Below are positions 3,110-62,881 of a stretch of DNA of 64,000 bases, piece after piece; position 1 is the stretch's first letter; the number at the start of each line of letters is the position of its first letter. Below the pieces are notes generated by a model that was not told the origin of the DNA, made no database searches, and worked only from the letters and a program-made list of their open reading frames with translations. The position numbers and the translations under genes were made by a program. This DNA comes from Microvirga aerilata. Its GTDB lineage: Bacteria; Pseudomonadota; Alphaproteobacteria; Rhizobiales; Beijerinckiaceae. The stretch is from assembly GCF_016743775.1 (NCBI RefSeq), contig NZ_JAEQMY010000008.1:62001-126000 (forward strand), written 5' to 3'.

Positions 3110-4816
3110 GTGGACGTAGGTCACGGCATGCTCCTGGCAGCAGTACTCGCGTATCTTCTTATCGGCCTTCTTGCCGTGTTTATTGGGCCTGCGGCTCGAA
3201 GCATCCGGCATGAGGGCCGCATGATGCGTAGAGATCAATCCATTCCAGGATGGAAGATAGCGGTTTTCCAAACAGTTCTCGCTCTTGGAACGATCCTGTT
3301 GTGGCCTATCCTCGTGCCATCTGCGGCGCGGTCCCGGAACATTTATAGCACGCCGCAGTCTCAAGATCGTGTGCGCGGCCTTGAAGAGCTAGTGAACATG
3401 ATGTCGGCGCTGAATCCAGACGCCGTAGATGCAGATGAACTGCCCAATGCTCGCGGCGCGTTTGGTTTATCAGAGCACAACCCGATACCCACCCGGTCCA
3501 TTGTTGAGAGCCGAAATTTCCTCGAAAGACTACGCACCTCCGATGGTACGAAGGTACTGTATGAGCGCATCGGATCGTTCTCCTCAGAAGCAACGAATCT
3601 TCCAGTGGATGGATATCGGATTACCCGTCCTGATGGCTCATCCCATGTAACGCTTTACTTCTCGCCCTACCAGAAACGCACCTCGGCGAAGGTGCCCCAT
3701 GGCTTTGGCCTGATCGATAGTCGAACTGGGCAAATCACATTCGCTGGCGATACGAGGACGGCTCCCAAACAGTGCGGGTTTGCAACCAAGGATTTTCCTG
3801 ACGCTTCGGAACCTTCCCCTGACGGCGATGACAGCTTGGTCATCTCTCCAAAAACTAAGGCTTCAGAAGAGCTTCCTGCTTCGCATCGTGAAGACGACAG
3901 TCCTAGAAATGCTCCCTCCCCTGGAATAGGCACATCACGGGATGGCCCGAAGGAGGCTGCGACAGTTAAACCGAGAGAGGCCAATCCATTCCCGCACGAC
4001 ATTGCAGATTTGCGGGCCGCCGCCCAGAGCGGTGACCCAGAGTCCCAGTATGCACTCGGTCTTCGATTTATTTACGGCCATGGCGTCGAAAGGAGCCGCG
4101 TGCTCGGCGAACGTTGGCTTTCTCAGGCTGGTCAGTCAGGGCATGTCGAAGCCCAGTTTTCTCTCGGTGTTCTTCATTGGGACGGTCTTCTCCTCGATCA
4201 CGGCGCGCAACAGGCGAGACTCTGGTTAGAGCTTGCAGCAAAGCAGGGTCACACTAAAGCTTTGAATATGCTGCCAATTGTTCAAGCGCGTTGCCAGTCG
4301 AGGCCGACCGAAGTCTCGGAGGCTGCCCCGCAGGAAAAGACCACAGAGTCCAATCCGGCTAAAGCTTCGGACGCTGCTCCGCAGGAAAGGGCAGCGCGAT
4401 CCAACATTACAAAGACGAGGATTCGGTCCATCCGGTGGCCTGCTCAGGATGGTCTGCCGCCTGTGGGCGGACGCAGGCCGCGCACCGCGCATTTTGAATT
4501 TTCAGTCGATGCCGCGATCACCGACAGCGAAAACCACCGCTTGTTCAGGCGCGGAGTGGCTAAAGGAAAACGATGCCTCAAAGCTGCGGAACAAGCACTG
4601 ATGATGCGGCTCGTCTCTTTCCCTGACCTCACAGCCAGTGATGAGCGCGTTCGCATGGTTGCTCGTGCAATTGCATCACGACGCGGATACACTTTAGTCG
4701 GTGAAGCAATCGGGATGGAGGACCTTATTGATGGCTCCGATCCTCTGTTTGATGAGCGGCGTGCCGCCTTCATCTCGGGTGTTTTCGCGGGCATCGACGG
4801 CACTGAAGACGAGTGA
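3110..4816 (+). CDS. Membrane-anchored Sel1-repeat protein
   Basis: The 568-residue protein begins with two hydrophobic segments (about residues 7-28 and 47-70), continues with a low-complexity Pro/Ser/Thr/Glu-rich region and then carries Sel1-like (TPR-type) repeats at about residues 297-400: DIADLRAAAQSGDPESQYALG and QSGHVEAQFSLGVLHWDG, then LELAAKQGHTKALNML. The last 130 residues are unrecognised. Sel1 repeats mediate protein-protein contacts. The start is the GTG at 3110; an ATG at 3128 in frame is an alternative and would leave the first membrane segment intact. Its closeness to the upstream gene suggests cotranscription. Function unknown. Confidence 0.6.
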   Translation: MDVGHGMLLAAVLAYLLIGLLAVFIGPAARSIRHEGRMMRRDQSIPGWKIAVFQTVLALGTILLWPILVPSAARSRNIYSTPQSQDRVRGLEELVNMMSALNPDAVDADELPNARGAFGLSEHNPIPTRSIVESRNFLERLRTSDGTKVLYERIGSFSSEATNLPVDGYRITRPDGSSHVTLYFSPYQKRTSAKVPHGFGLIDSRTGQITFAGDTRTAPKQCGFATKDFPDASEPSPDGDDSLVISPKTKASEELPASHREDDSPRNAPSPGIGTSRDGPKEAATVKPREANPFPHDIADLRAAAQSGDPESQYALGLRFIYGHGVERSRVLGERWLSQAGQSGHVEAQFSLGVLHWDGLLLDHGAQQARLWLELAAKQGHTKALNMLPIVQARCQSRPTEVSEAAPQEKTTESNPAKASDAAPQERAARSNITKTRIRSIRWPAQDGLPPVGGRRPRTAHFEFSVDAAITDSENHRLFRRGVAKGKRCLKAAEQALMMRLVSFPDLTASDERVRMVARAIASRRGYTLVGEAIGMEDLIDGSDPLFDERRAAFISGVFAGIDGTEDE

Positions 4817-5961: not shown

Positions 5962-6384
5962 ATGGCTTTGGGGGCAAAAATGGTGGAGGTCTTGCTTAGG
6001 GCAGGAACAGTCGAGGTGCTGCTCGCAGCAGTTGCGGCGCTCGTTGTTACTGTGGTCATTCTGGTGATCTCCATTCGTCTGAAGCATAATTTCATTACAA
6101 TTATTGAGCCGCTCACCCGCGACGTGATTGGCCAGCTTCTCCGTGCTGAGACTGAATTAGTTCGCCGCACTAGCGAGGATCATGCGCGCAGCATTCGGGA
6201 TGAATTAGCCGACAGAGTTCGCGACTTTCAGGAGAACACCAGTCGGACATTCTCGGTGCACTTCGACGGCATGAACGGTCAAATCCGCACTTTCGGCGAG
6301 CGGCTTGATGGAGGCATCAAGGCGCACGGTGTCACTGGCTCAATTCTGGTGAACTGGAACACACCTACTGTATCGTGCGCGTGA
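5962..6384 (+). CDS. Short membrane-anchored coiled-coil protein, possibly a truncated RmuC-like protein
   Basis: The 140-residue protein has one strong transmembrane segment (about residues 18-40) followed by a charged helical stretch (RSIRDELADRVRDFQENTS, then FGERLDGGIKA) that reads like the N-terminal anchor and coiled coil of RmuC-type proteins. RmuC proteins normally continue for another 250 or more residues with a nuclease-like domain, which is absent here; the last fourteen residues look unrelated to the coiled coil. The stop TGA (6382-6384) overlaps a possible GTG start of brxA. It may be a degraded gene left at the edge of the BREX cassette, or a short genuine protein. The RmuC assignment is tentative. 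Confidence 0.45.
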   Translation: MALGAKMVEVLLRAGTVEVLLAAVAALVVTVVILVISIRLKHNFITIIEPLTRDVIGQLLRAETELVRRTSEDHARSIRDELADRVRDFQENTSRTFSVHFDGMNGQIRTFGERLDGGIKAHGVTGSILVNWNTPTVSCA

Positions 6385-6980
6385 TCGTGAGAACTCCCTA
6401 CCGAATGTCATTTTCGACGGGCGGGCTCTTCGTTAACGAGAGCGTGGAAATCGCGCGCTTGCACGAACAGGGTTCCGACTGGGCAGAAACCATCACGAGA
6501 GCACTCATTGATGGACCCACCCGTCTTCCCAAGCGGGACTCGAACCGGCGGACTGTCCGCGAAATCGCCAATCGCCTGTCCTGCTTGACCGATGAGGAGC
6601 GTGAGTACCTGACCAACAGCGCGGACCGAGCGGAAAAGCAGGCACTTCTATGGCTGGCGACCTGTCGCGCGTATGCCTTTGTCCGAGACTTTGCCATTGA
6701 GGTGATCCAGGACAGGCTATCGTCCCACCGGTCTGACCTGCCTTTGGACGTGTTTGATCAGTATTTTGACAGCAAGTCCGAGTGGGACGAGAACCTCGCG
6801 GCAATTAGCCCAACTACTCGTCGGAAGCTTCGTCAGGTCCTTTTCCGGATCATGCGCGAAGCCGGGATTATCAACACCGTCAACACGATCCAACCAACCT
6901 ACCTAAGCTCGGCATTGCGAACTTTGATCGGGAAAACGACCCCAAACGACTTCCTTGTTTTTCCCGGTCTTCAGCAATGA
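6381..6980 (+). CDS. brxA: BREX system protein BrxA (DUF1819)
   Basis: First gene of the BREX locus. BrxA is a small helical DNA-binding protein needed for some BREX systems. The N-terminal block YRMSFSTGGLFVNES is typical of the family, followed by SDWAETITRAL, the DEEREYL region, and near the C-terminus RKLRQVLFRIMREAGII. About 200 residues matches the family. The start is uncertain: GTG at 6381 overlaps the upstream stop (GTGA), GTG at 6387 and ATG at 6405 are alternatives, and no Shine-Dalgarno sequence is obvious. The stop overlaps the brxB start as ATGA. Confidence 0.88.
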   Translation: MIVRTPYRMSFSTGGLFVNESVEIARLHEQGSDWAETITRALIDGPTRLPKRDSNRRTVREIANRLSCLTDEEREYLTNSADRAEKQALLWLATCRAYAFVRDFAIEVIQDRLSSHRSDLPLDVFDQYFDSKSEWDENLAAISPTTRRKLRQVLFRIMREAGIINTVNTIQPTYLSSALRTLIGKTTPNDFLVFPGLQQ

Positions 6981-7594
6981 AAGCGCGCCCTATGTCTGGA
7001 CCACCGACAGCAAAGGAACGGTTTGAGCACCTTCTTAAGGTCGTTTCGAGTGAACGGTTCCTAACCAAGCAGGGCTTGGGCAACGAGGTTCCATTTTTCA
7101 TCTGCTCATTCGATCCGGCAGAAGCCTTCGAGGTCGCAGAGGATGTCAGCCTGCTGGCTAAAAATCTTCAGAATCTAGGCCTCACGGTCCTCCAGATCGA
7201 CCTTTATGACCTCTCCCTATCGATCCTTGAAGAGCGTGGCATCTTGGACGAGGTGCTGGTGATAGAGCCAGGACACAGCAAGGCCGAGATCAAAGAACTG
7301 CTCCAAGGCGTCCTGGACCCTGCCGCGCATCTCATTCCGAGGATCGGCCAGATGATCGCGTCTGTGCCACATGACGTCATCTTCATAACGGGGGTCGGCG
7401 AAGTGTATCCGTACATCAGATCGCACAACGTGCTGAACAACCTACAGAGTACGGCAAAGGACAGACCTACCGTGATGTTCTTCCCTGGTACCTATACGCA
7501 TGCGCTGGCGACGGGGGCTTCACTCGATCTATTCGGCATGCTTCACGACGACAAATACTACCGCGCCTTCAACATCATGAATTATGAGGTCTGA
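6977..7594 (+). CDS. brxB: BREX system protein BrxB (DUF1788)
   Basis: A 205-residue protein of the DUF1788/BrxB family, a small component of BREX that is required for defence in studied systems. Typical features are the start ERFEHLLKVVSSERFL, the central VLQIDLYDLSLSIL, and the end VMFFPGTYTHALATGASLDLFG preceding FNIM. The ATG overlaps the brxA stop by four bases (ATGA), indicating translational coupling, and brxC follows after five bases. Confidence 0.9.
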   Translation: MKARPMSGPPTAKERFEHLLKVVSSERFLTKQGLGNEVPFFICSFDPAEAFEVAEDVSLLAKNLQNLGLTVLQIDLYDLSLSILEERGILDEVLVIEPGHSKAEIKELLQGVLDPAAHLIPRIGQMIASVPHDVIFITGVGEVYPYIRSHNVLNNLQSTAKDRPTVMFFPGTYTHALATGASLDLFGMLHDDKYYRAFNIMNYEV

Positions 7595-7599
7595 CACTC

Positions 7600-10500
7600 A
7601 TGTCCCTCCACATGCGTGATATTTTCATCAAGCCCGTTGACCGTCCAATTGATGGTGTCATCAAAGCGGACGATGAGGCGAGCCTCCGGGATGAACTCGA
7701 CGAGTATGTCATTACACGCGAAATCGCCCAGCGGCTCGGTGACTTCCTCCATGCTTACAACAATTACAGCACCGCAAACGGCGTGTGGATTTCCGGGTTC
7801 TTCGGCTCAGGCAAGTCTCACCTCCTGAAAATGCTGGCTTACCTGCTAGAAAACCGGCAGGTTGATGGAGTTCCGGCTTACAACCTGTTTAAGGACAAGA
7901 AGGAGTTGAAAGACGATCCGATGCTGGCAGGCGCGCTGCGCAAGGCCATATCGATCCCGTCAAGGAGCATCCTCTTCAACATCGATCAAAAGGCCGACGT
8001 CATTTCGAAAACTGAGGTGGATGCACTCCTCGCGGTCTTTCAAAAGGTGTTTGACGAGACCTGCGGCTATTATGGCAAACAGCCGCATATCGCCCAGTTT
8101 GAGCGCGATCTCGACAGCCGTGGCGTGCTACTGGCGTTCCAGGATGCCTATCTGGCGGTTGCCGGGAAGCCATGGACGCGTGGTCGCGAGCAGGCGCTAC
8201 TTGAGGGCAGCAACATCGCCACGGCCTACGCAAAGGCGACGGGCGCGCCTGAGACGGACGCAGCGGGAATCCTCAACCGGTATCGGTCCGAGCATCGGGT
8301 TTCGATTGAGGATTTTGCCAACACGGTGAAGGCCTGGATCGACACCCAGGCTCCGAAATTCAGGCTGAATTTCTTCGTGGACGAGGTCGGGCAGTACATC
8401 GCCGATAACACGAAGCTCATGACCAACCTTCAGACTATCGCGGAGAGCCTCAACACCAAGTGCAAGGGGCAGGCCTGGATCATCGTCACGGCGCAGCAGG
8501 ATATGGCATCCGTGATCGGCGACATGAACGCGAAGCAGGAGAACGACTTCTCCAAAATTCAGGCCCGTTTTGCGACTCGCATGCCCCTGAACAGTGCTGA
8601 CGTCGCTGAAGTCATCCAGCGTCGCCTGCTGGCGAAGACAGAGGAGGGCGTCGCCAAGCTCGCCAATCTTTATGCCCGTGAGGAGAACAACCTCCGAACA
8701 CTCTTCGACTTCGCGGACGGCTCCGTACGGCTGAAGAACTACCGGGATAGGGATCACTTCATTCAGAGCTATCCCTTCCCGCCCTTTCAGTACACTCTGT
8801 TCCAGTTGGCAATCACATCGCTGTCGCAGCATAACGCCTTCGAGGGAAAGCATAGCTCTGTTGGCGAGCGCTCGATGCTGGGCGTTTTCCAGGAGGTCGC
8901 GAAGTGGATCGCCGACTACCCGGTCGGTGATCTGGCGACCTTCGACTTGATGTTCGAGGGCATTCGCTCCGCCCTAAAGTCGTCGGTGCAGCAGTCCATC
9001 CAGCTTGCGGAAAAGAACATTGAAGGAATCGACCCGTTTGCGCTTCGGGTTCTGAAGGCTCTGTTTCTGGTCAAGTATGTCAAAGAGTTCAAACCAACAG
9101 TTCGCAACATCAGCATCCTCCTGCTGTCGGAATTCAACGCCGACCTGGTCGCCCAAAAACGGCAGATCGAGGAGGTGCTGAATCTGCTTGAGCGCCAGAC
9201 GCTGATCCAGCGGAACGGGGAGGCCTACGAATTCCTCACGAATGAGGAGGTCGATGTCCAGAACGAGATCAAGGCGCTCGACGTCGATCCCTCCGAGATC
9301 GCGAAGGAACTGGAGACCCTCATTTTCGAAGACACGATCCGGCAAAAGAAGATCAAGCATGTCAGCACGGGCAACGAGTATCCCTACAGCCGCAAGCTGG
9401 ACGACCGGCTTCTCGGTCGAGAGTACGAACTCGCCATCAATGTTGTGAGCCCGTTCGACGACGATTCAGGTTCGCCTGAAGGTGTCCGGATGCGGACACT
9501 CTCGCGTGACGAACTCGCCGTGGTGATGCCGCAGGATGTGCGGTTCATCCGCGACCTGACCTTGTTCAAAAAGAAGGACAAGTTCCTGCGCCAAGCCGCG
9601 ACAGCCACCCAGCAAGAAGGGCGCACGCGGATCGTGGGTGAAATCCGGGAGCAGATGACCCGCAATCGCTCCGATCTTAAGACCCGCCTACACACTCTCA
9701 TGACCGACGCCAAGATGTTCCTGCGCGGTGAAAACGTAGAGATCGCAGGCGAGGACCCGCAGGAACGGGTCGTGAAGGCCTTCCAGAGCTTGGTAGACAA
9801 GACCTATGTCAGCCTCCCCATGCTCCGGGGCCTAACCTATTCCGAAGCCGATATCGCGCGTGCGTTGAAGCCCTCTGGGGGCTTGTTCGGTGCCGAGGGC
9901 GTGGGCCTGACAGAACCCGAGCAGGAAATCCTGAACTTCGGCAACAGCCAAGCGAAGCTGGGTGTCCGCGTCACCGTGAAGGCGCTGCTGGAGAAGTTCG
10001 AGACCAAGCCGTACGGCTGGCCCACAGCGGCGGTGCTTTGCATCACGGCCAGCCTGATCGCGCGCAACAAGCTCGAAGCCCGGTCGGATGGGACGCTGTT
10101 GGAGGGCTCCGATCTTGAGAAGGCGCTGCGAAACTCCAACCTCCTGGCCAACATCGTCCTGACACCGCAGGTCGAGTTCCAACCTTCGCAGATCAAGCGG
10201 CTGCGGGACTTTTATAAGGACTTCTTTGACGCTCCTGTCGATGGCAACGATGCCAAGGTGCTGGCGGCTGAAACCGCTGCCGGGTTTGATAAAGTGCGCC
10301 GGGAGACCGAGCTACTGCTCGCGCAGGAGGACAGTTTCCCATTCCTTGCCGCATTGCGCGATGTGTCATCCACGCTTGCGCAGGTCAGCGGGAAGCCTGC
10401 CGCATGGTACCTGACCGATCTTGCCCCCTTCGAAGACAAGCTGCTCGACGCGAAGGAGGAAATCCTCGACCCGATCCGCGCCTTCATGGGCGGTCCGCAA

Positions 10501-11130
10501 CGCACAATCTATGACGAGATCAGCAAGTTCCTCAAAGCGCACGCGGCGAACTTCCAGCAGGTCGGGGCGGCAGAGGCGGAAGCCATCCGCAAAGCGCTGG
10601 CTGATCCAGCCTGCTACAAAGGAGCGAAACTCCAGAACTTGAAGACCGGATATCACGCCCTCAAGGATAGGGTCGATCTGAAGATCATTGAGGAGCGTAA
10701 GGCGGTCGAGGCCGAGATCGCCACCTGTAAGGCGAAGATCGAGGCCCTGCCTGAAATCGAGAAGCTGAGCAGCGCGCAGCGTGCTGCTGTTCTTTCACCC
10801 ATTGAAAGGGCAAGCCAGGGGCTTGGCGACATCGTGCTTATCGCGGTCCTGCGAAACCACGCGAACGACATCCGCACAACGTTGTACCCCGCCCTGTTGG
10901 AAGAGGTCATCCACCTCGCCCGACCGGTTGAGGCACCCCAGCCCGAGCCGGGCCTAGGGGAAGGCGGCGCTCCGCCGCCGACGCCGCCGCGTCTCATCAA
11001 GCGGCAGGACATCCGGATTACCTTCGCCAAGTCGATCCTGTCCAGTGATAGCGACGTGGATGCCTATGTCGAGGGGCTGCGCACAGCCATGCTCGCCGAA
11101 ATCAATGCCGGAAAAGAGATCATCGTCTGA
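7600..11130 (+). CDS. brxC: BREX system P-loop ATPase BrxC
   Basis: The 1,176-residue ATPase is the large motor protein of BREX (PglY/BrxC family, ORC/Cdc6-like AAA fold). Walker A is GFFGSGKSH at about residues 66-74; a Walker B-type stretch LNFFVDEVGQYI lies at about 254-265, followed by a sensor-like WIIVTAQQDM. The long C-terminal half is helical, with coiled-coil stretches such as KIIEERKAVEAEIATCKAKIE, and a Pro/Gly linker (PPPTPPR) before a conserved end. Full length and intact. Its stop TGA shares one base with the pglX ATG. Confidence 0.95.
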   Translation: MSLHMRDIFIKPVDRPIDGVIKADDEASLRDELDEYVITREIAQRLGDFLHAYNNYSTANGVWISGFFGSGKSHLLKMLAYLLENRQVDGVPAYNLFKDKKELKDDPMLAGALRKAISIPSRSILFNIDQKADVISKTEVDALLAVFQKVFDETCGYYGKQPHIAQFERDLDSRGVLLAFQDAYLAVAGKPWTRGREQALLEGSNIATAYAKATGAPETDAAGILNRYRSEHRVSIEDFANTVKAWIDTQAPKFRLNFFVDEVGQYIADNTKLMTNLQTIAESLNTKCKGQAWIIVTAQQDMASVIGDMNAKQENDFSKIQARFATRMPLNSADVAEVIQRRLLAKTEEGVAKLANLYAREENNLRTLFDFADGSVRLKNYRDRDHFIQSYPFPPFQYTLFQLAITSLSQHNAFEGKHSSVGERSMLGVFQEVAKWIADYPVGDLATFDLMFEGIRSALKSSVQQSIQLAEKNIEGIDPFALRVLKALFLVKYVKEFKPTVRNISILLLSEFNADLVAQKRQIEEVLNLLERQTLIQRNGEAYEFLTNEEVDVQNEIKALDVDPSEIAKELETLIFEDTIRQKKIKHVSTGNEYPYSRKLDDRLLGREYELAINVVSPFDDDSGSPEGVRMRTLSRDELAVVMPQDVRFIRDLTLFKKKDKFLRQAATATQQEGRTRIVGEIREQMTRNRSDLKTRLHTLMTDAKMFLRGENVEIAGEDPQERVVKAFQSLVDKTYVSLPMLRGLTYSEADIARALKPSGGLFGAEGVGLTEPEQEILNFGNSQAKLGVRVTVKALLEKFETKPYGWPTAAVLCITASLIARNKLEARSDGTLLEGSDLEKALRNSNLLANIVLTPQVEFQPSQIKRLRDFYKDFFDAPVDGNDAKVLAAETAAGFDKVRRETELLLAQEDSFPFLAALRDVSSTLAQVSGKPAAWYLTDLAPFEDKLLDAKEEILDPIRAFMGGPQRTIYDEISKFLKAHAANFQQVGAAEAEAIRKALADPACYKGAKLQNLKTGYHALKDRVDLKIIEERKAVEAEIATCKAKIEALPEIEKLSSAQRAAVLSPIERASQGLGDIVLIAVLRNHANDIRTTLYPALLEEVIHLARPVEAPQPEPGLGEGGAPPPTPPRLIKRQDIRITFAKSILSSDSDVDAYVEGLRTAMLAEINAGKEIIV

Positions 11131-14100
11131 TGAATACCAACAAGCTCAAGAGGCTCGCCCAAGACGCCCGCACCTATCTCATCGGACAGGTCACCTCGAA
11201 ACTCGGCCTTGTCCTGACCGAGGGCAGCGCCGCGCGGCGCGAAGTTCCAGCAGCGGTGCAGGAACTGGAGCGCAACATCCTGGCGACGTCCCAGGCGCAG
11301 GTGATCGAGAAAGTTGCCTACACGTGGTTCAATCGATTCACCGCGCTCCGCTTCATGGATGCGAACGGTTACACCAACCCGCGTGTTGTCACACCAGCCG
11401 AAGGGGCCACCCGACCCGAGATTTTGGCAGATGCCGTCGCCGGGCACTTTGACGATGCCATACCGGCCACGACACGCGCCACCGTCACGGCTTTGCTCGA
11501 TGGCCGCATGCCGTCGCGTGATGCGCAGGGCGAGGCCTTTCGCCTTCTCCTCGTCGCTATGTGCAACCGCTGGCATGGCCATATGCCATTCATGTTCGAG
11601 AAGATTGCGGATTTCACCGAGCTTCTCATGCCTGAGGACCTACTGTCCCCCAATAGCGTCCTGTCGCGCTTGCGCGACGAGATGACGGATGCGGATTGCC
11701 AGGACGTCGAGGTGATCGGCTGGCTATACCAGTTCTACATCAGCGAAAAAAAGCAGCAGGTGTTCGACGCACTGAAAAAAAATGTGAGGATCACAGCGGA
11801 TAACATGCCTGCCGCGACGCAGCTTTTCACGCCGCACTGGATCGTTCGCTATCTCGTCGAGAACTCTCTGGGCCGCCTCTGGCTGTTAAACCGGCCAAGC
11901 TCGAAGCTCGCGGAGCGGATGGACTACTACATCAACTCGGAGGAGCCCGAGACGGACTTCCTGCGCATCTCCCGCCCCGAGGACATCCGCATCTGCGATC
12001 CGGCTTGTGGCTCGGGCCACATGCTGACCTATGCCTTCGACCTGCTCCATGCCATCTATGAGGAAGAGGGCTATGAGGCGACGCAAATCCCGGCGCTGAT
12101 CCTCACGCACAACCTGCATGGCGTCGAGATCGACGACCGCGCAGGTGCGCTGGCCGCTTTCGCGCTGACCATGAAGGCGGCGGAAGCACTTGGGCGCAGG
12201 CGGTTCCTGCGCTTCGAGGTCCAGCCGAATATCTGCGTGATGCAGGATGTGCGTTTTACGACAGCCGAGATGCAGGACGTGGCCTCGGTTGTTGGGCGCG
12301 ATCTCTTCACGAGCGAATTGAGGGAGACGCTCGCCCAGTTCGAGCGGGCGAAGAACTTCGGATCGCTGATTGTGCCGAAGCTGCGCAATCCCGCTGAGGT
12401 TGCCCGAGTTGTACGGCTCAACGACTTTGGTGGCGACCTGCTGCTGCGGGACGTGCAAGAGCGGGTACTGAAGGTCCTGGAGATGGCGGAGGCTCTGTCG
12501 CCCAAATATCACGTGATGGTGGCCAATCCGCCATACGCCGGTTCTAAAGGCTTGAATGACTCCCTTGGTGAGTGGGTCAAAGACAGATATCCAAATGCCA
12601 AGTCAGACCTGTATGCAGCTTTCATTGAGCGCGGGCTAAGGCTGATTATGCCGAAGGCCTTTTGTGCAATGGTGACGATGGAAAGCTGGATGTTTCTTTC
12701 TTCGTCCGAGAAGCTTCGAGAAAAGATTTATTCGCAAGCTGCGATCCTGTCTATGGTGCATATGCCCTACCTTGGGAAGGGTAGCACAAGTATGGGGATC
12801 AATTTCGGAACAACAGCGTTTGTGTTAGAGAACATCTTCCGTCCAGCATTATTGGCAAACTATTATTGTCTGAGATATTTTGAGTCAGACGCATTCGGTG
12901 TTCCCCTGCACTTTCCTCCAAAAAACGAGCGTCAGTCTACAGCGTCCATCAAAGATTTCGAAAAGATTCCTGGAGCGCCAATTGCTTACTGGGTAAGCAA
13001 AGCTGTTTACGAGATTTTTGAGCGGTCTCCCTCACTCGGAGAACTGGGCGCGCCAACACACGGTGTCGTCACGGGGGATAATGATCGCTTTCTGCGACAA
13101 TGGCACGAGGTTTCACGGACTCGAACGGGCTTCGGCTGCTCAGATCGCCAGACTGCGTTGACTACTCGCGCAAAATGGTTCCCCGTCAGCAAGGGGGGGC
13201 CTTTCAGGCGCTGGGCTGGAAATCTGGAGTATGTGATCGATTGGGAAAATGATGGCTTTGTACTTCAAACAACAAAGCACCACACCGGACGGATTCGCGC
13301 TACGAATTTCAATCTGACGCGGATATTCCAGCCAGGCATAACTTGGTCCACAATTACAAGTGGATCGTTCAGCATGCGATATCTCCCTTCTGGGCTCCTT
13401 TTTGAGAGTAAGGGGTCAGTCTGCTTCTGCAAAACAGAAGAAGAAAGGTTATTTTTGCTGGCGCTTACGAACACTAAAGTCACAAGTGCCCTGTTGCTTA
13501 TAATGTCTCCAACACTAGACTTTCACGAAGGGCCGATGAGTCGGATTCCTATCGTATCCATTGATCATGGGCCTACTGTTCGATTGGCCTCGCGGCTCAG
13601 GGACTTATCTCTCGCGGATTGGAATGGACAAGATATATCGTGGGACTTCATGCATTTACCGCTGCTTGCGCCCGTTTACAGGGCCGAAACGTTGGCAGGA
13701 GCATACAACTATCTGCGTGCTCACTGGCGTGACATGACGGACGAGATGCAGCGGTTGGAGGAAGAGAACAACCGTATTTTCATCGACGCCTATGGCTTGC
13801 ACGATGAACTCGGCCCCGAGGTGGCGCTGGATGAAGTTAGTCTCACGTGCAACCCCGCCTATCGGTATGGGGGCAATCTGACCGAGGCTGAAAAAGAAAC
13901 GCGCCTCCTTGCCGACACCATTGCCGAGTTCATGCACTACGCTGTCGGCTGCATGTTCGGACGCTACAGCCTTGACGTGCCCGGCCTGATCCTCGCCAAC
14001 CAGGGTGAGGGGCTTGCCGACTATTTGGGCCGCGTGCCGGAGCCGAGCTTCATGCCGAACGAGGACAACGTCATCCCGGTGCTCGATGGCGACTGGTTCG

Positions 14101-14645
14101 CAGACGACATCACCGAGCGCTTCCGCAAATTCCTGCGCGTCACCTTCGGCGAAGCGAAACTCCAGGAAAACCTCACCTTCATCGAGGCCGCGCTTGGCAA
14201 GGACATTCGGAAGTGGTTCACGCGCGACTTTTTCGACTACCACGTCCGGCGCTTCAAGAAGCGGCCCATCTACTGGATGTTCTCATCCCCCAAGGGCAGC
14301 TTCAATGCGCTCATCTACATGCATCGCTATCGCCCCGACACGGTCAGCGTGCTCCTGAACGACTATCTTCGGGAGTACATTTCGAAGCTCCAGACGGAGC
14401 GGGCGCGGCTGGAAAAGCTGTCCGACGACCTCGCGGCCTCGCAGGGGCAGAGGACACGGGCGCTGAAGGATGTCGCCACGGTCATAAAGCAGATCGACGA
14501 ACTGACCACATGGGAGCGCGACGTCGTCTTCCCGCTCGCCCAGTCCAAGATCGAGATCGACCTCGACGAGGGAGTGAAGCGCAACTACCCCCGGTTCGGT
14601 GCGGCGCTGAAGCCCATCAAGGGCTTGGAGGCGGCGGATGAGTGA
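11130..14645 (+). CDS. pglX: BREX adenine-specific DNA methyltransferase PglX
   Basis: The 1,171-residue N6-adenine methyltransferase marks host DNA at an asymmetric site so that BREX distinguishes self from phage. The SAM-binding motif I DPACGSGHML starts at residue 290 and the catalytic motif IV NPPY is at 466-469; an N-terminal helical domain precedes them and a target-recognition region of about 600 residues follows. The stretch around 12,540-13,700 is visibly more AT-rich than the rest of the gene and lies where the target-recognition part is expected, consistent with specificity exchange by recombination. It starts at the brxC stop and overlaps pglZ by eight bases. Confidence 0.95.
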   Translation: MNTNKLKRLAQDARTYLIGQVTSKLGLVLTEGSAARREVPAAVQELERNILATSQAQVIEKVAYTWFNRFTALRFMDANGYTNPRVVTPAEGATRPEILADAVAGHFDDAIPATTRATVTALLDGRMPSRDAQGEAFRLLLVAMCNRWHGHMPFMFEKIADFTELLMPEDLLSPNSVLSRLRDEMTDADCQDVEVIGWLYQFYISEKKQQVFDALKKNVRITADNMPAATQLFTPHWIVRYLVENSLGRLWLLNRPSSKLAERMDYYINSEEPETDFLRISRPEDIRICDPACGSGHMLTYAFDLLHAIYEEEGYEATQIPALILTHNLHGVEIDDRAGALAAFALTMKAAEALGRRRFLRFEVQPNICVMQDVRFTTAEMQDVASVVGRDLFTSELRETLAQFERAKNFGSLIVPKLRNPAEVARVVRLNDFGGDLLLRDVQERVLKVLEMAEALSPKYHVMVANPPYAGSKGLNDSLGEWVKDRYPNAKSDLYAAFIERGLRLIMPKAFCAMVTMESWMFLSSSEKLREKIYSQAAILSMVHMPYLGKGSTSMGINFGTTAFVLENIFRPALLANYYCLRYFESDAFGVPLHFPPKNERQSTASIKDFEKIPGAPIAYWVSKAVYEIFERSPSLGELGAPTHGVVTGDNDRFLRQWHEVSRTRTGFGCSDRQTALTTRAKWFPVSKGGPFRRWAGNLEYVIDWENDGFVLQTTKHHTGRIRATNFNLTRIFQPGITWSTITSGSFSMRYLPSGLLFESKGSVCFCKTEEERLFLLALTNTKVTSALLLIMSPTLDFHEGPMSRIPIVSIDHGPTVRLASRLRDLSLADWNGQDISWDFMHLPLLAPVYRAETLAGAYNYLRAHWRDMTDEMQRLEEENNRIFIDAYGLHDELGPEVALDEVSLTCNPAYRYGGNLTEAEKETRLLADTIAEFMHYAVGCMFGRYSLDVPGLILANQGEGLADYLGRVPEPSFMPNEDNVIPVLDGDWFADDITERFRKFLRVTFGEAKLQENLTFIEAALGKDIRKWFTRDFFDYHVRRFKKRPIYWMFSSPKGSFNALIYMHRYRPDTVSVLLNDYLREYISKLQTERARLEKLSDDLAASQGQRTRALKDVATVIKQIDELTTWERDVVFPLAQSKIEIDLDEGVKRNYPRFGAALKPIKGLEAADE

Positions 14646-17136
14646 GCGAATCGCCGCTTCGCTCGCGCGGCTCTTCGAGGAGCAGCGGATCGTCTTCTGG
14701 TACGACGCCGCCCACGACATGCGGGCGGATTACGACAGCATCGACTTGCCCGATGTCGTGAAGCTGGAGATCGCCAACAACCAGTTCGGCCTCAAATACC
14801 GCATCTTGCGGCAGGAGAAGGAAAGGAAATTCCTGCTCTACCATGCCGGTCCCCGCCCGGCAGAGGCCGAGGACTGGCTCCTCGACTTATATCTAGCCAG
14901 CGCCGAATTGCGGGCGGACCAGACGGCAATGCTGCTTGCCGAACTTGGAATCGACCAGAAGCTCGATGCTGTCGTCCGCGAACATAGCGAGTTCTTTAGG
15001 GCCAAGAGCCGCGTCGAGGCGTTCAAGAAGGCGCTCAAGCCGAGCGACAATGCCACGCAACTCCGCCTGCGGATGCTCGCCGTGTGTGCCAATGCGCCCG
15101 GCGGCTTGGATACCGTGATCGAGGCGTTGCTGGCCGAGGCAGCCCAGGAGCGCGAGGAGGCGCTGAAGCTGGTCGAGCGTTGCGGCCTGACGGGCTTCCT
15201 CTGGAAGCAGATCGGTAATGCCTATGGCTACCACGCGAAACCACCGGGGATGGACGACTTCACCATCTCGCTGTTCAAGGCATGCTACGCGATGAGCCTC
15301 GCCGAGGACTCCGCGCTGAATGCCGAGGCTTTTGTGCTGTTCCGCCGTTGGAAGAATGACCGAACCGGTGCCAAGCATTTCGAAACGCTGGCCGCGCGCT
15401 TCGAAGGGCCGTTGGCAATCAAGTCCGATCTTGCGAAGCGCGATTTCCGTGACCTGATCGAGATGGACATCTTCGAGGAGGTGGACCGGCATGTCATTCG
15501 CAATATCGTCCATGGCATGGCCGAGCAGACTGTGACGCCGGTCGAGGTGCTGCGTTGGGTCCAGCAACGGCGAAACAGTCATTGGTACGAGAAATTCAAG
15601 GACATCTACGACGCTCTGCGATTCGCCGCTGAATTCACGAAAGGGCTCAGCGAAGTTACGCTGAGCATGACCAGCCTCGCCGAGGGGTTCAGCCGCTATG
15701 CCACGACGTGGTTCCGCCTCGATCAGCACTACCGACGTTTCATCCACCACTACCAAAACAGCGCCCAGGCTACTCTGCTGGGGAGCGTCTTCGAGCGGAT
15801 CGAGAACCTGTACGTCAACAATTTCCTCGTGAAGCTCAACGACGCGTGGCAGGAGCAGATCAACAAGGTGACAGTCTGGGATATTCCGGAAGTGGATCGC
15901 CAGATCACTTTTTATCGCGATCAGGTCGCCGCGTTCCGTCGCCGCGACCAGAAGGTCTGCGTAATTATTTCGGATGCCCTGCGATACGAGGCGGCGGAAG
16001 AGTGCCTGAGCCGAATTCGCGCGTTGGACCGTTTCGACGCGGAGTTGAAGCCGATGCTCGGCGTCCTGCCAAGCTACACCCAACTTGGGATGGCTGCCCT
16101 GCTGCCCAACAAGGCGCTGCGCATCGCCGAAGGCGATAGCACGCTCGTCTTCGATGGCGAGCAGCCCACAAGCGGCTCCGCCAACCGCGAGAAACGGCTG
16201 GCGACCGGTCGCGATGGCGACCGCGTCGCGGTCCTTGGCGCAGAGGAACTCCGGAACTTCAAGTCAGATCAGGCGAAGGAATTCTTCCGCGACCATGACG
16301 TGATCTACGTCTACCACAACCAGATCGATGCCATCGGCGACAAGGTCGCCACGGAGGACGATCTGGCGGATGCGGTGGAAGACACGCTGGACGAGATCGT
16401 GGTGCTGGTTCGCAAGCTGACCTCGGCCAACGCCTCGAACATCCTGATCACCGCCGACCATGGCTTCATTTACCAACATCGCCCCATTGAGGAGAGCGAC
16501 TTCTCCGTCGCAGAAGTGCTGGGGAATGTCCTAGCCCGCAACCGCCGCTTCGTGCTGGGCAAGAACCTGCCCCCTACACCCGGTTTGAAAAAGTTCACCT
16601 CAGACCAGCTTGGGCTGGCTGGTGATCTCGACATCATGATCCCGAACTCGATCAACCGATTGCGGTTGAAGGGAGCCGGAAGCCGGTTTGTTCACGGCGG
16701 TGCATCGCTACAGGAGATCGTAGTGCCGGTAATCCGGGTGGCCAAGCGCCGGGAAAGCGATGTCCGTCAGGTAGACGTTCAGATCATCAGCACCGGCAAG
16801 AACCTAATCACTTCGGGACAGTTGGCGGTGATGTTCTACCAGGCCCAACCAGTGACGGACAAGGTGCAGCCGCGCAGCCTTCGCGCAGGAATTTTCGCCT
16901 CCAATGGCGAGTTGGTCTCCGACGTTCACGACCTGACATTCGGGTTTAAATCCGAGAATCCGCGCGAGCGGGAACTGCCCCGCAAATTCCTGCTGTCCAG
17001 GAAAGCGGATCAGCACAACAATGAGGACGTGTTCCTGCGCCTTGAAGAGCGTGTTGGGACAACCAGCCACTTCCAGGAATATGCGAGCCAGCGCTTCCAG
17101 CTTCGCCGTGGCATCGCAACCGATTTCGATTTTTGA
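14638..17136 (+). CDS. pglZ: BREX alkaline-phosphatase-superfamily protein PglZ
   Basis: An 832-residue PglZ protein. The alkaline-phosphatase-like domain shows its metal-binding motifs: VCVIISDALRYEA at about residues 438-450 and ILITADHGFIY at about 601-611, with the RFVHGGASLQEIVVPV block following. PglZ is essential for BREX and structural work on the family supports metal-dependent phosphodiesterase-like activity. N-terminal about 280 residues form the DUF-like helical region typical of BREX type 1 PglZ. It overlaps pglX by eight bases; brxL follows after twelve bases. Confidence 0.94.
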   Translation: MSERIAASLARLFEEQRIVFWYDAAHDMRADYDSIDLPDVVKLEIANNQFGLKYRILRQEKERKFLLYHAGPRPAEAEDWLLDLYLASAELRADQTAMLLAELGIDQKLDAVVREHSEFFRAKSRVEAFKKALKPSDNATQLRLRMLAVCANAPGGLDTVIEALLAEAAQEREEALKLVERCGLTGFLWKQIGNAYGYHAKPPGMDDFTISLFKACYAMSLAEDSALNAEAFVLFRRWKNDRTGAKHFETLAARFEGPLAIKSDLAKRDFRDLIEMDIFEEVDRHVIRNIVHGMAEQTVTPVEVLRWVQQRRNSHWYEKFKDIYDALRFAAEFTKGLSEVTLSMTSLAEGFSRYATTWFRLDQHYRRFIHHYQNSAQATLLGSVFERIENLYVNNFLVKLNDAWQEQINKVTVWDIPEVDRQITFYRDQVAAFRRRDQKVCVIISDALRYEAAEECLSRIRALDRFDAELKPMLGVLPSYTQLGMAALLPNKALRIAEGDSTLVFDGEQPTSGSANREKRLATGRDGDRVAVLGAEELRNFKSDQAKEFFRDHDVIYVYHNQIDAIGDKVATEDDLADAVEDTLDEIVVLVRKLTSANASNILITADHGFIYQHRPIEESDFSVAEVLGNVLARNRRFVLGKNLPPTPGLKKFTSDQLGLAGDLDIMIPNSINRLRLKGAGSRFVHGGASLQEIVVPVIRVAKRRESDVRQVDVQIISTGKNLITSGQLAVMFYQAQPVTDKVQPRSLRAGIFASNGELVSDVHDLTFGFKSENPRERELPRKFLLSRKADQHNNEDVFLRLEERVGTTSHFQEYASQRFQLRRGIATDFDF

Positions 17137-17148
17137 GGACGTTAGGGA

Positions 17149-19230
17149 ATGTCGGACCTGAACGCCAAGATCAATGCCCACTTCGCAGGCTTTGTGGTCC
17201 GAAAGGACCTCGTGAAGGCGGTCAAGGGCAATGCCATTGTCCCTACCTACGTGCTGGAGTACCTCCTGGGCCAGTACTGCGCGACGGACGATGAGGCCTC
17301 CATCGAGACTGGCATCGATACGGTGAAGGATATTTTGCGGAAGCACTATGTGCACCGGAACGAGGCCGGGCTGATCCAGTCCACTATCCGCGAGAGAGGC
17401 CGATACAAGGTTATCGACCGCATCAGCGTGGCTCTAAACGAAAAGACAGACGCCTATGAGGCCACGTTTGAGAACCTCTCCATCAAGCGCGTCGGGGTCG
17501 ATAGCGTTACCGTGAAAGCCAATCCCAAGCTGTTGGTAAGCGGGGTCTGGTGCATCGCCGATGTCCAATATGAACACTCAGAGGACGCGCGGGTCTCGCC
17601 CTGGCTGATTGAGGCGCTCAAGCCGATTCAGATTGCGAGCATCGATTTCGAGGGCTTCGTTGAAGCGCGGAGGGCGTTCACAACAGAGGAGTGGATCGAC
17701 GTTCTATTGCAGAGCATTGGTTTCGATCCGGCGGCATTCGGAAAGCGCAGCAAGCTCCTGCAACTGATGCGCCTGATCCCTTTCGTGGAGCGGAACTACA
17801 ACCTGATTGAACTCGGACCCAAGGGAACTGGCAAGTCGCATGTCTACTCGGAATTTTCGCCCCACGGTCAACTAATCTCCGGAGGCGAGGTCAGCGTTCC
17901 CAAGCTTTTCGTCAACAATTCCAATGGGCGGATCGGCCTGGTTGGCTTTTGGGACGTGGTTGCGTTCGACGAGTTCGCCGGACGAGAGAAATCGGCCAAC
18001 AAGGCGCTGGTCGATATCATGAAAAACTATATGGCGAATAAGACCTTTTCGCGCGGCATCACACCCATTGGCGCGGAAGCGAGCTTCGCCTTCGTGGGCA
18101 ACACGGCCCACAACGTGCCCTACATGCTGAAGAACAGTGACCTGTTCGAGGAACTCCCGCCCCAGTTCCACGACTCGGCGTTCATCGACCGGCTTCATGC
18201 CTATCTTCCGGGCTGGGAGGTTGATGTGATCCGTGCGGAAATGTTCACGACCGGATTTGGCTTTATCGTGGACTACCTCGCTGAAATCCTCCGCCACCTG
18301 CGCGGTGACGACCTATCACATCGGCATCAAGCGTTCTTCGCCGTTGGCCCGCAAATCTCGACCCGAGATCGTGACGCCATCCACAAGACAATGTCTGGTT
18401 TAATGAAGTTGCTGTTTCCCGCTGGGGGCGAAACGGAGGCGGAGGTCGAAGAACTTCTGCGGCTGGCGATGGAGAGCCGCAAGCGCGTGAAGGACCAATT
18501 GAAGCGGATCGACTCGACCTATCCGCCCGTTGACTTCCATTTCGTGTCAAAGGCGGGCCGGAAGGTTGTTGTAACGACCCTGGAGGAGGACGAATTCCCT
18601 CAGTTCTATTACCTGCATGCAGCCAGCGAGCCAAAGCTGCGCAGCCAGATCGGTGAAGAAGGCGAAGCAGCCCCGGCGGAACGTGAGGAGCAAAACTCAA
18701 AGGGAGCCAGTGCCGCCGTCGTGACCAAGCCTCCATCCTCCGAGGCCAAAGAGGGGCACTTCGTGTTTGCTGAGAACCGCAAGGGCATCACTTTCGACAA
18801 GCTTTTCGGCCCGTACCTCCGGGGTGCTACGAAGATCGTGGTCACCGACCCGTACATCCGACTCTTCTACCAGGTCCGCAATGTGATGGAGTTGGTGGAA
18901 ACCGTGATCAGGTTGAAAGCACCTGAGGAGCAGGTGGCCATGCAACTCGTCACGTTCCCTGATAGTGTAAACCCCGAGAAACAAGCGGACAATTTGAATG
19001 CCATTATGACAGCGTGTGAGGGAACAGGCGTCACCTTTACGTGGGCTTTCGACGGCACCGGCACGGGACACGCTCGTCACATCACCACCGATACAGGGTG
19101 GAAAATATCATTGGATCGAGGCTTGGACATCTTCCAACAGTACGCGATGAACGATGCCTTCAATCTCGCCAATCGCCTTCAGGAACATCGGGCTGTAAAG
19201 CAGTTCGAGGTGACATACCTGCGAGTTTAG
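17149..19230 (+). CDS. brxL: BREX ATPase BrxL with C-terminal MIT_C-like domain
   Basis: The 693-residue protein is the last BREX core component. The central AAA+ ATPase of the BrxL family is clear: Walker A GPKGTGKSH from residue 223, Walker B VVAFDEFAG with D274-E275, and the NTAHNVPYMLK / FEELPP block. BrxL proteins form MCM-like rings on DNA. The usual C-terminal Lon-type protease region is not recognisable: no GPSAG-type serine motif is present. Instead, after a linker rich in Glu/Ala/Pro (about 503-545), residues 547-693 match the MIT_C (phospholipase-D-like) fold pattern: ITFDKLFGPYL, VVTDPYIR (D567), then GWKISLDRGLDIFQQY. MIT_C is best known from eukaryotic MITD1. Whether this form is common among BrxL proteins cannot be judged here. 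Confidence 0.9.
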   Translation: MSDLNAKINAHFAGFVVRKDLVKAVKGNAIVPTYVLEYLLGQYCATDDEASIETGIDTVKDILRKHYVHRNEAGLIQSTIRERGRYKVIDRISVALNEKTDAYEATFENLSIKRVGVDSVTVKANPKLLVSGVWCIADVQYEHSEDARVSPWLIEALKPIQIASIDFEGFVEARRAFTTEEWIDVLLQSIGFDPAAFGKRSKLLQLMRLIPFVERNYNLIELGPKGTGKSHVYSEFSPHGQLISGGEVSVPKLFVNNSNGRIGLVGFWDVVAFDEFAGREKSANKALVDIMKNYMANKTFSRGITPIGAEASFAFVGNTAHNVPYMLKNSDLFEELPPQFHDSAFIDRLHAYLPGWEVDVIRAEMFTTGFGFIVDYLAEILRHLRGDDLSHRHQAFFAVGPQISTRDRDAIHKTMSGLMKLLFPAGGETEAEVEELLRLAMESRKRVKDQLKRIDSTYPPVDFHFVSKAGRKVVVTTLEEDEFPQFYYLHAASEPKLRSQIGEEGEAAPAEREEQNSKGASAAVVTKPPSSEAKEGHFVFAENRKGITFDKLFGPYLRGATKIVVTDPYIRLFYQVRNVMELVETVIRLKAPEEQVAMQLVTFPDSVNPEKQADNLNAIMTACEGTGVTFTWAFDGTGTGHARHITTDTGWKISLDRGLDIFQQYAMNDAFNLANRLQEHRAVKQFEVTYLRV

Positions 19231-61882: not shown

Positions 61883-62881
61883 GTGAACGACGCGACGAGA
61901 CAGGAATGGATCCTGGAAGACGGCATGGCGGCCGAGCGGCTGGACCGCGTGCTGGCGAAACTTCAAAGCGACCTGTCGCGGAGCAGGCTTCAGGCGCTCA
62001 TCCGCGACGGCCAGGTGGCCGTCGACGGGGTGCCGGCGCTCGACCCGAACCGCAAGGTCGGCGGCGGCGCGCATGTGGCCCTCATGGTCCCGCCTCCGGT
62101 TCCGGCGGAGCCGGAGGGCGAGGCGATTGCGCTCACCATCGTGTACGAGGACGACGACGTCATCGTGATCGACAAGCCCGCCGGCCTCGTGGTCCATCCG
62201 GCGGCCGGCCACGAATCCGGCACCCTGGTGAACGCGCTCATCGCCCATTGCGGGGAGAGCCTGTCGGGCATCGGCGGCGTGAAGCGCCCTGGCATCGTGC
62301 ACCGTCTCGACAAGGACACGTCGGGCCTGCTGGTGGTGGCCAAGAACGACCTCGCCCATCAGGCCCTGTCGGCGCAGTTCGCCGACCATGGGCGCACCGG
62401 CCCGCTGGAGCGGGCTTATCTGGCGTTCGTCTGGGGTGTGCCCGACCGAAAGCGCGGAACGGTCGAGGCGGCGCTCGCCCGCAGCACCCACAACCGCGAG
62501 AAGATCGTGGTCGTCTCCGACGAGCGCGGCCGCTATGCCATCACCCATTACGAGGTTCTCGAAAACCTGCCCGCCGCCGCCCCCATGGCGAGCCTGGTCC
62601 GGTGCGAGCTGGAAACAGGACGCACCCACCAGATCCGGGTTCACATGGCCCATCTCGGGCACCCCCTCTTAGGCGACCCGGCCTATGGTTCGGGCTTCAA
62701 GACCAAGGCGAATCGCCTCTCGGAGCAATCGAGAACTGCGCTGGGCGCGCTGAACCGGCAGGCCCTGCATGCGGCGATCCTGGGCTTCGAGCACCCGCGG
62801 AGCGGAGAATTCCTGCGCTTCGAGAGCCCCCTGCCCTCCGACATGGAGGCGCTTCTTCAGGCCCTGCGCGCCGCGATTTAG
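61883..62881 (+). CDS. rluD: RluA-family pseudouridine synthase, probably RluD
   Basis: A 332-residue enzyme that isomerises uridines in 23S rRNA helix 69 if RluD as the domain layout suggests. An N-terminal S4 domain (AERLDRVLAKLQSDLSRSRLQALIRDGQV) precedes the catalytic domain with the nucleophile Asp in GIVHRLDKDTSGLLVVAKN and the ELETGRTHQIRVHMAHLGHPLLGDP block. Start is GTG at 61883 with GAGG five bases upstream. Confidence 0.9.
   Translation: MNDATRQEWILEDGMAAERLDRVLAKLQSDLSRSRLQALIRDGQVAVDGVPALDPNRKVGGGAHVALMVPPPVPAEPEGEAIALTIVYEDDDVIVIDKPAGLVVHPAAGHESGTLVNALIAHCGESLSGIGGVKRPGIVHRLDKDTSGLLVVAKNDLAHQALSAQFADHGRTGPLERAYLAFVWGVPDRKRGTVEAALARSTHNREKIVVVSDERGRYAITHYEVLENLPAAAPMASLVRCELETGRTHQIRVHMAHLGHPLLGDPAYGSGFKTKANRLSEQSRTALGALNRQALHAAILGFEHPRSGEFLRFESPLPSDMEALLQALRAAI

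Follow-up and report, generated by a model that had tools for sequence, protein, structure and literature searches.

BrxL proteins of the Lon type, found in bacteriophage exclusion (BREX) systems, form rings through their N-terminal and AAA+ parts, heptameric without DNA and hexameric on DNA; assembly of the ring on DNA and tail-to-tail pairing of rings are both described (PMC10164562). In Acinetobacter BrxL (8emc) the tail which pairs the two rings is Lon/RadA-like and carries no catalytic motif (PMC10164562). A second kind of tail is described in Type-1 BREX, where a domain of the phospholipase D (PLD) superfamily, termed an HKD-endoDNase, replaces the Lon-like tail and a change of lysine to arginine gives the motif HRD. 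Rakesh and Krishnan (2026, PMC12839542) count this form in 1030 of 2913 Type-1 BrxL proteins, call HKD-fused BrxL specific to Type-1 BREX and expect it to be active. The gene considered here is brxL of Microvirga aerilata, situated in a stretch of 64,000 nucleotides (the window; positions 62,001 to 126,000 of contig NZ_JAEQMY010000008.1, assembly GCF_016743775.1), whose product ends in an MIT_C domain, the domain of human MITD1. MITD1 is a partner of the endosomal sorting complex required for transport III (ESCRT-III) in eukaryotic cell division. The Menshen paper is said to have been the first to report the HKD tail.

The gene and the parts of it discussed below are as follows.

17149..19230, forward strand: brxL, 693 amino acids, comprising BrxL_N, AAA+ ATPase, linker and MIT_C (Pfam, NCBIfam, PADLOC)

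18619..18738, forward strand: probable flexible linker, brxL codons 491-530, with a predicted local distance difference test (pLDDT) score below 50 in the full-length AlphaFold2 model

18784..19224, forward strand: MIT_C / PLD-like domain, brxL codons 546-692 (Pfam MIT_C)

19069..19092, forward strand: HxRx4D motif HARHITTD, brxL codons 641-648, in place of the PLD motif HxKx4D, with conservation taken from 139 domains

The MIT_C domain is real and its match lies far above chance. MIT_C (PF16565) aligns with residues 546-692 over its whole profile (1-142), with an E-value of 1e-38 and 132.9 bits against a cut-off of 25. The initial annotation, made from the sequence alone, had read the last 147 residues as MIT_C from three segments, ITFDKLFGPYL, VVTDPYIR and GWKISLDRGLDIF; all three fall inside the domain, which is indeed 147 residues long and ends one residue before the C-terminus. 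The predicted model of the tail has the MITD1 fold, placing it within the PLD fold as well as the MIT_C family; neither a Lon fold with a serine-lysine dyad nor a lack of structural resemblance to MIT_C was found. When the protein was compared by phmmer with the structures of the PDB, human MITD1 (4a5z, 2ymb) matched residues 538/540-664 (E-values of 5e-10 and 8e-10) and Acinetobacter BrxL matched residues 3-464 only (E-value of 2.8e-136), so that the two BrxL proteins align in the N-terminal domain and AAA+ core and differ in their tails. No Lon protease family in Pfam or NCBIfam matched over the tail, which is thus not a member of the Lon S16 family. The model for Lon-type BrxL, TIGR02653, scores 576.7 bits on the window protein against a cut-off of 628.25, the match stopping at 466 of 675. 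Ten Lon-type BrxL proteins from the window's phylum match it to 672-674, seven passing the cut-off and three lying just below (613-626). Since these three true Lon-type proteins miss the cut-off, it is the extent of the match and not the cut-off which discriminates. The absence of a Lon serine-lysine dyad, also claimed at the outset, is not distinctive, as Lon-like BrxL tails are reported to have no such dyad either (PMC10164562, PMC12839542).

The remainder of the protein is that of an ordinary BrxL. BrxL_N occupies residues 11-141 (E-value of 1.3e-47) and BrxL_ATPase residues 152-461 (E-value of 1.1e-126) in the Pfam-A scan, PF20442 and PF13337 both being matched, and the family model TIGR02688 gives 600.2 bits against a cut-off of 329.3. 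The PADLOC model PDLC02508 covers residues 1-692 at model positions 1-694 of 698 (1153.7 bits), and since it spans nearly the whole protein the full architecture was already contained in that 2023 defence library. The Walker motifs had been described as intact, and both are present where they were placed, Walker A at G223-S230 (GPKGTGKS) and Walker B at D274-E275, invariant across 34 aligned sequences (the window's and 33 relatives). Residues 491-530 are probably a flexible linker joining the AAA+ core to the tail. The full-length model is poor, with a mean pLDDT of 61.8 and residues 211-365 also below 50, and served for this hint only. The two Pfam domains are separated by 84 residues, to be set beside a linker at 469-497 in Acinetobacter BrxL (PMC10164562), the two measures being different ones.

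Human MITD1 is 27% identical to the window tail in its C-terminal domain, with asparagine in place of D648 and methionine in place of K652. There the domain is attached to an ESCRT-III-binding MIT domain (PMC9477494), the N-terminal hallmark of MITD1, and none was found in the window protein by the Pfam scan. After MITD1 the top structure match of the tail is a restriction enzyme, and those that follow are mixed: the restriction enzymes SauUSI and NgoAVII are joined by phosphatidylserine synthases, which score equally high, and by phospholipases D. SauUSI (7clg), an ATP-dependent Type IV restriction enzyme, is 9% identical to the window tail over the aligned region and is described as having an SF2 helicase motor, an N-terminal nuclease with the motif HxKx4E, and recognition of modified cytosine. 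The fold and family shared with MITD1, together with the phospholipid enzymes among the matches, bring to mind a tail which, in the manner of MITD1, attaches to membrane phospholipid or acts on it, taking the ring to the membrane where phage DNA enters. This minor rival is considered improbable: the first fold match beyond MITD1 is a restriction enzyme, and the published BREX ring is described as soluble and DNA-loaded (PMC10164562).

PLD nucleases use HxKx4D or, in SauUSI, HxKx4E. Conservation was assessed in 139 distinct MIT_C domains, many closely related, made up of the window's, those of BrxL proteins from several phyla and three from non-BrxL proteins, the very divergent domain L144/L153 being left out of the count. 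The position of H641 is histidine in 138 (glutamine in L121), that of R643 is arginine in 138 (cysteine in L186), and that of D648 is aspartate in 130, asparagine in eight and serine in one. Lysine is found at the R643 position in none of the 139, and the window tail is thus not a member of the HxKx4D group of PLD/HKD domains. Human MITD1 has histidine, arginine and asparagine at the three positions, and on this alignment the MIT_C family is HxR throughout.

It is judged, on balance, probable that the AAA+ ring acts on DNA and that its PLD-like tails, paired and bearing composite HxRx4D sites, nick or cut it. The N-terminal and AAA+ parts would form an ATP-dependent ring on DNA recognised by BREX as unmethylated; the tails, tethered by the linker, would pair in the way known from other PLD nucleases with a single motif, build composite active sites between them, reach the DNA in the chamber and nick or cut it. 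The domains, the operon, the fold and the conservation of the motif are the basis which the present analysis gives to this reading; by analogy, the window tail may pair and cut, and its arginine may serve for the canonical lysine. SauUSI is described as pairing through its PLD domains, the HxK motifs jointly forming the site, and a dimeric PLD active site is reported for both SauUSI and BfiI. Rakesh and Krishnan expect the lysine-to-arginine change to keep activity (PMC12839542).

Several points weigh against cutting by the tail. As the canonical lysine is found in no MIT_C domain, catalysis must be regarded as unproven, and the MIT_C identity shows this absent lysine to be the weak point of the published 'endoDNase' reading. 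In PLD1 and PLD2, replacing the lysine by arginine is a classical way to abolish activity. In the published Lon-type ring, moreover, a long distance separates the tails from the DNA (PMC10164562). The main rival is that the tail is a non-catalytic, phosphate-binding pairing module replacing the ring-dimerising Lon-like tail, which may grip DNA whilst PglZ or another partner cuts. It would explain why MIT_C occupies the place of a catalytically dead, ring-pairing tail; PLD domains are reported to pair naturally, the lysine is missing throughout, and MITD1 retains most of the invariant residues with no known catalysis. It is held to be rather unlikely nonetheless, since the histidine and arginine are nearly invariant across several phyla, whether or not the protein is a BrxL, which exceeds what a pairing surface would need, and the spacing of the motif is that of a PLD active-site motif.

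With HxRx4D at residues 641-648 and a place in a Type I operon, the window protein corresponds to the published BrxL-HKD, and from motif and position the HKD-endoDNase domain appears to be MIT_C. A word search of the main text of that paper (PMC12839542) found none of the names MIT_C, MITD1 or dynamin; PF16565 is listed among BREX genes in one published work.

The architecture is common and already published, and the window protein is a new member of it. The initial annotation had not judged its frequency, which is shown both by the published count given above and by the genomes sampled here. Of 398 genomes from the window's phylum, BrxL_ATPase exceeded its cut-off in 17, the window's own included, and MIT_C in seven, all seven being among the 17 with the domain inside the BrxL frame; the other ten have a Lon-like tail, confirmed by family model. 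With the window's own genome excluded, the MIT_C tail is present in six of 16 BrxL-bearing genomes. A further 296 genomes were taken from the phylum of a Chlorobiaceae metagenome-assembled genome (G400), chosen because the domain was present, and gave 33 places over the BrxL_ATPase cut-off. The 28 that were classed comprise 15 with MIT_C, nine whose different tail, some 205 residues long, is called Lon-like by length alone, and four without a tail. Amongst GTDB contigs, the best 80 of at least 420 confirmed relatives are all MIT_C-tailed (one cut by the contig end), although their ranking by similarity to MIT_C BrxL makes this no measure of frequency. Matches were found in 25 of 72,556 plasmid records at E-values up to 0.01, and no match to the window tail was found in 50,697 INPHARED phage records at E-values up to 1. 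Contigs labelled viral in IMG/VR do carry brxL (L110-L119, L166-L180), perhaps as parts of bacterial islands or of prophages.

A number of candidates were discarded in these surveys. Matches to PF16565 under the cut-off in the first phylum sample (L008-L011) were dropped as chance, L008 and L011 reading as ABC transporter ATPases. L162, just above the cut-off at 25.5 bits, was rejected as an ABC ATPase; the sample in which nine of 194 exceeded the PF16565 cut-off includes it and similar matches (L163-L165), and so overstates true MIT_C. L029 and L145-L147 fell under the cut-off, the former being dropped and the latter set aside, as was L143, a fragment with an internal stop. Of separate note are two BrxL frames of 477 and 489 amino acids (L196 in G610 and L202 in G642) that end shortly after the AAA+ core; L196, though tailless, groups with the window's MIT_C clade. 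On the Rhodococcus opacus plasmid pCP135 (L184:1384-3462) brxL directly follows a toxin-antitoxin pair of the AbiEi/AbiEii type, and the 6.5 kb viewed contain no annotated pglZ.

MIT_C is also found in four proteins other than BrxL.

L124:6631-9474, Candidatus Thiodictyon plasmid pTs485: 947 amino acids, Dynamin_N GTPase domain followed by a C-terminal MIT_C

L127:5431-6480, Paenarthrobacter plasmid pYJN5-1: 349 amino acids, IF2_N domain and MIT_C

L152:7098-10307 (G554): MIT_C, then 17 Sel1 repeats; other genes of the cluster encode a DpdE-like helicase, an Eco57I-type methylase and an Mrr-type nuclease

L153:6765-7703 (G524): 312 amino acids, weak MIT_C (32 bits, cut-off 25), adjoining an AAA_15 ATPase resembling Menshen NsnB, with a Type III restriction gene near

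No BREX genes were found in the 18 kb viewed around the L124 gene or in the stretch viewed around L127, nor restriction genes in the annotated stretches of either; the tail of L127 is closer to the window tail (41% identity) than to MITD1. Dynamin-type GTPases belong to a membrane-remodelling class, and the fusion in L124 is a further point in favour of action at the membrane. Against this, two of the four proteins, L152 and L153, are encoded among DNA-restriction genes. Where nucleic-acid or membrane binding in the effector step had been suggested at the outset, it is the nucleic-acid half that has gained the better support, the membrane half resting on MITD1 and this one dynamin fusion.

Two further loci (L155/L221 in G541:C10 and L156/L222 in G768:C44) are BREX-like: an MIT_C tail is borne by a very divergent BrxL core, accompanied by DUF4007, a weak PglZ match and an Eco57I-type methylase; the large ATPase of L155 resembles SspC. 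Assignment to Type-4 BREX was rejected because DUF4007 has a methylase of the Eco57I type as its neighbour. The loci agree with neither canonical Type 1 nor phosphorothioate Type 4 and are left as BREX-like and unplaced, and they sit badly with the Type-1 specificity reported for HKD-fused BrxL (PMC12839542).

The closest bacterial kin of MITD1 found by sequence comparison are the tails of a BrxL subclade to which the window protein does not belong. Its members are L126, L187, L125, L154, L166-L180 and L218-L220, and the tail from the Thioflavicoccus plasmid pTHIMO01 (L126:4348-6447) matches human MITD1 with an E-value of 2.2e-39. Human MITD1 scores 117-144 bits against 17 subclade tails (40-51% identity), 88-101 bits against two divergent BrxL proteins (37%) and 40-85 bits against the other 117 BrxL tails (26-36%), whilst the window tail is 22-30% identical to the same 17. 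In a careful tree of 47 rows, MITD1 and seven subclade rows share one branch with support of 100/100. Those rows derive from 67 that were less than 80% alike or added from plasmids, with one divergent, three long and 16 window-side rows dropped; a quick tree of 66 rows, the long ones included, gives the same branch a Shimodaira-Hasegawa-like approximate likelihood ratio (SH-aLRT) of 100. MITD1, the sole eukaryotic sequence in these trees, is sister to the seven rows at 90/79 under midpoint rooting of the 47-row tree, which is not firm. Contamination is unlikely because the brxL of L126 lies on a complete plasmid adjoining pglZ and that of L154 adjoins pglZ and pglX; the PglZ beside L126 is not type A by its cut-off.

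It is thus tentatively proposed, at a little under even confidence, that the PLD-like domain of MITD1 belongs to a mobile domain of bacterial defence and shares an ancestor with BrxL tails of the Thioflavicoccus/Hymenobacter type to the exclusion of the other MIT_C domains sampled, through exchange between bacteria and eukaryotes in which the bacterial domain more likely came first. In literature excluding most subscription papers and all preprints, no published account of a MITD1-like BrxL tail was found, nor any publication linking MITD1 with horizontal gene transfer. In trees of the AAA+ core, where 'Lon' denotes any tail longer than 120 residues that MIT_C does not match (19 rows have 201-209 residues, and only ten were confirmed by family model), the subclade is placed next to a Lon-type BrxL. 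A separate gain of MIT_C by the subclade is not claimed, its union with the window's clade not being rejected by the approximately unbiased (AU) test (p-value of 0.134). A single clade of all MIT_C BrxL is rejected (AU p-value of 1e-6), a result which rests mainly on the distant L155 and L156 and carries a long-branch warning. Within the subclade, brxL of the Hymenobacter sp. BRD67 plasmid (L125:7391-9432) is annotated as several successive short pieces and looks broken. One frame from the viral contig collection (L175:2294-4231) combines part of a PglZ, recognised by eye, with a MITD1-like tail and is missing the BrxL core; the fused frame is likely a deletion or an assembly artefact.

In the window, brxL is preceded by five further genes.

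6375..6980, forward strand: brxA (Pfam BrxA 2.6e-48; PADLOC BrxA 3.8e-76)

6977..7594, forward strand: brxB (Pfam BrxB 3.3e-41; PADLOC BrxB 1.8e-72)

7600..11130, forward strand: brxC, P-loop ATPase (NCBIfam NF033441, 1196 bits, cut-off 400)

11130..14645, forward strand: pglX (brxX), BREX-1 adenine methyltransferase (NCBIfam NF033452, 1370.7 bits, cut-off 500)

14638..17136, forward strand: pglZ type A (BREX-1) (NCBIfam TIGR02687, 829.8 bits, cut-off 270.35)

The genes run in the order brxA, brxB, brxC, pglX, pglZ type A, brxL (6375-19230), all on the forward strand and overlapping or at most 13 bases apart, and by gene content they form a complete Type I BREX operon. Upstream lie a phage-type integrase gene (220-1209), a gene of the PDDEXK_4 nuclease family (1409-2620) and a Sel1-repeat gene (3110-4816), which together suggest an integrated defence island.

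BrxL proteins have two main forms, and the window BrxL adds a complete case to one of them, useful for work on the role of the tail, so far inferred, and on the way in which BREX blocks phage DNA. Recognition of the tail as MIT_C provides it with a solved structure, that of MITD1. It also raises the question of whether the membrane-binding domain of MITD1 was domesticated from defence, or whether a phosphodiester-related activity of MITD1 has been overlooked. If the proposed ancestry is true, bacteria and eukaryotes would have exchanged a domain that serves as a phage-defence effector in the one and in cytokinesis in the other.
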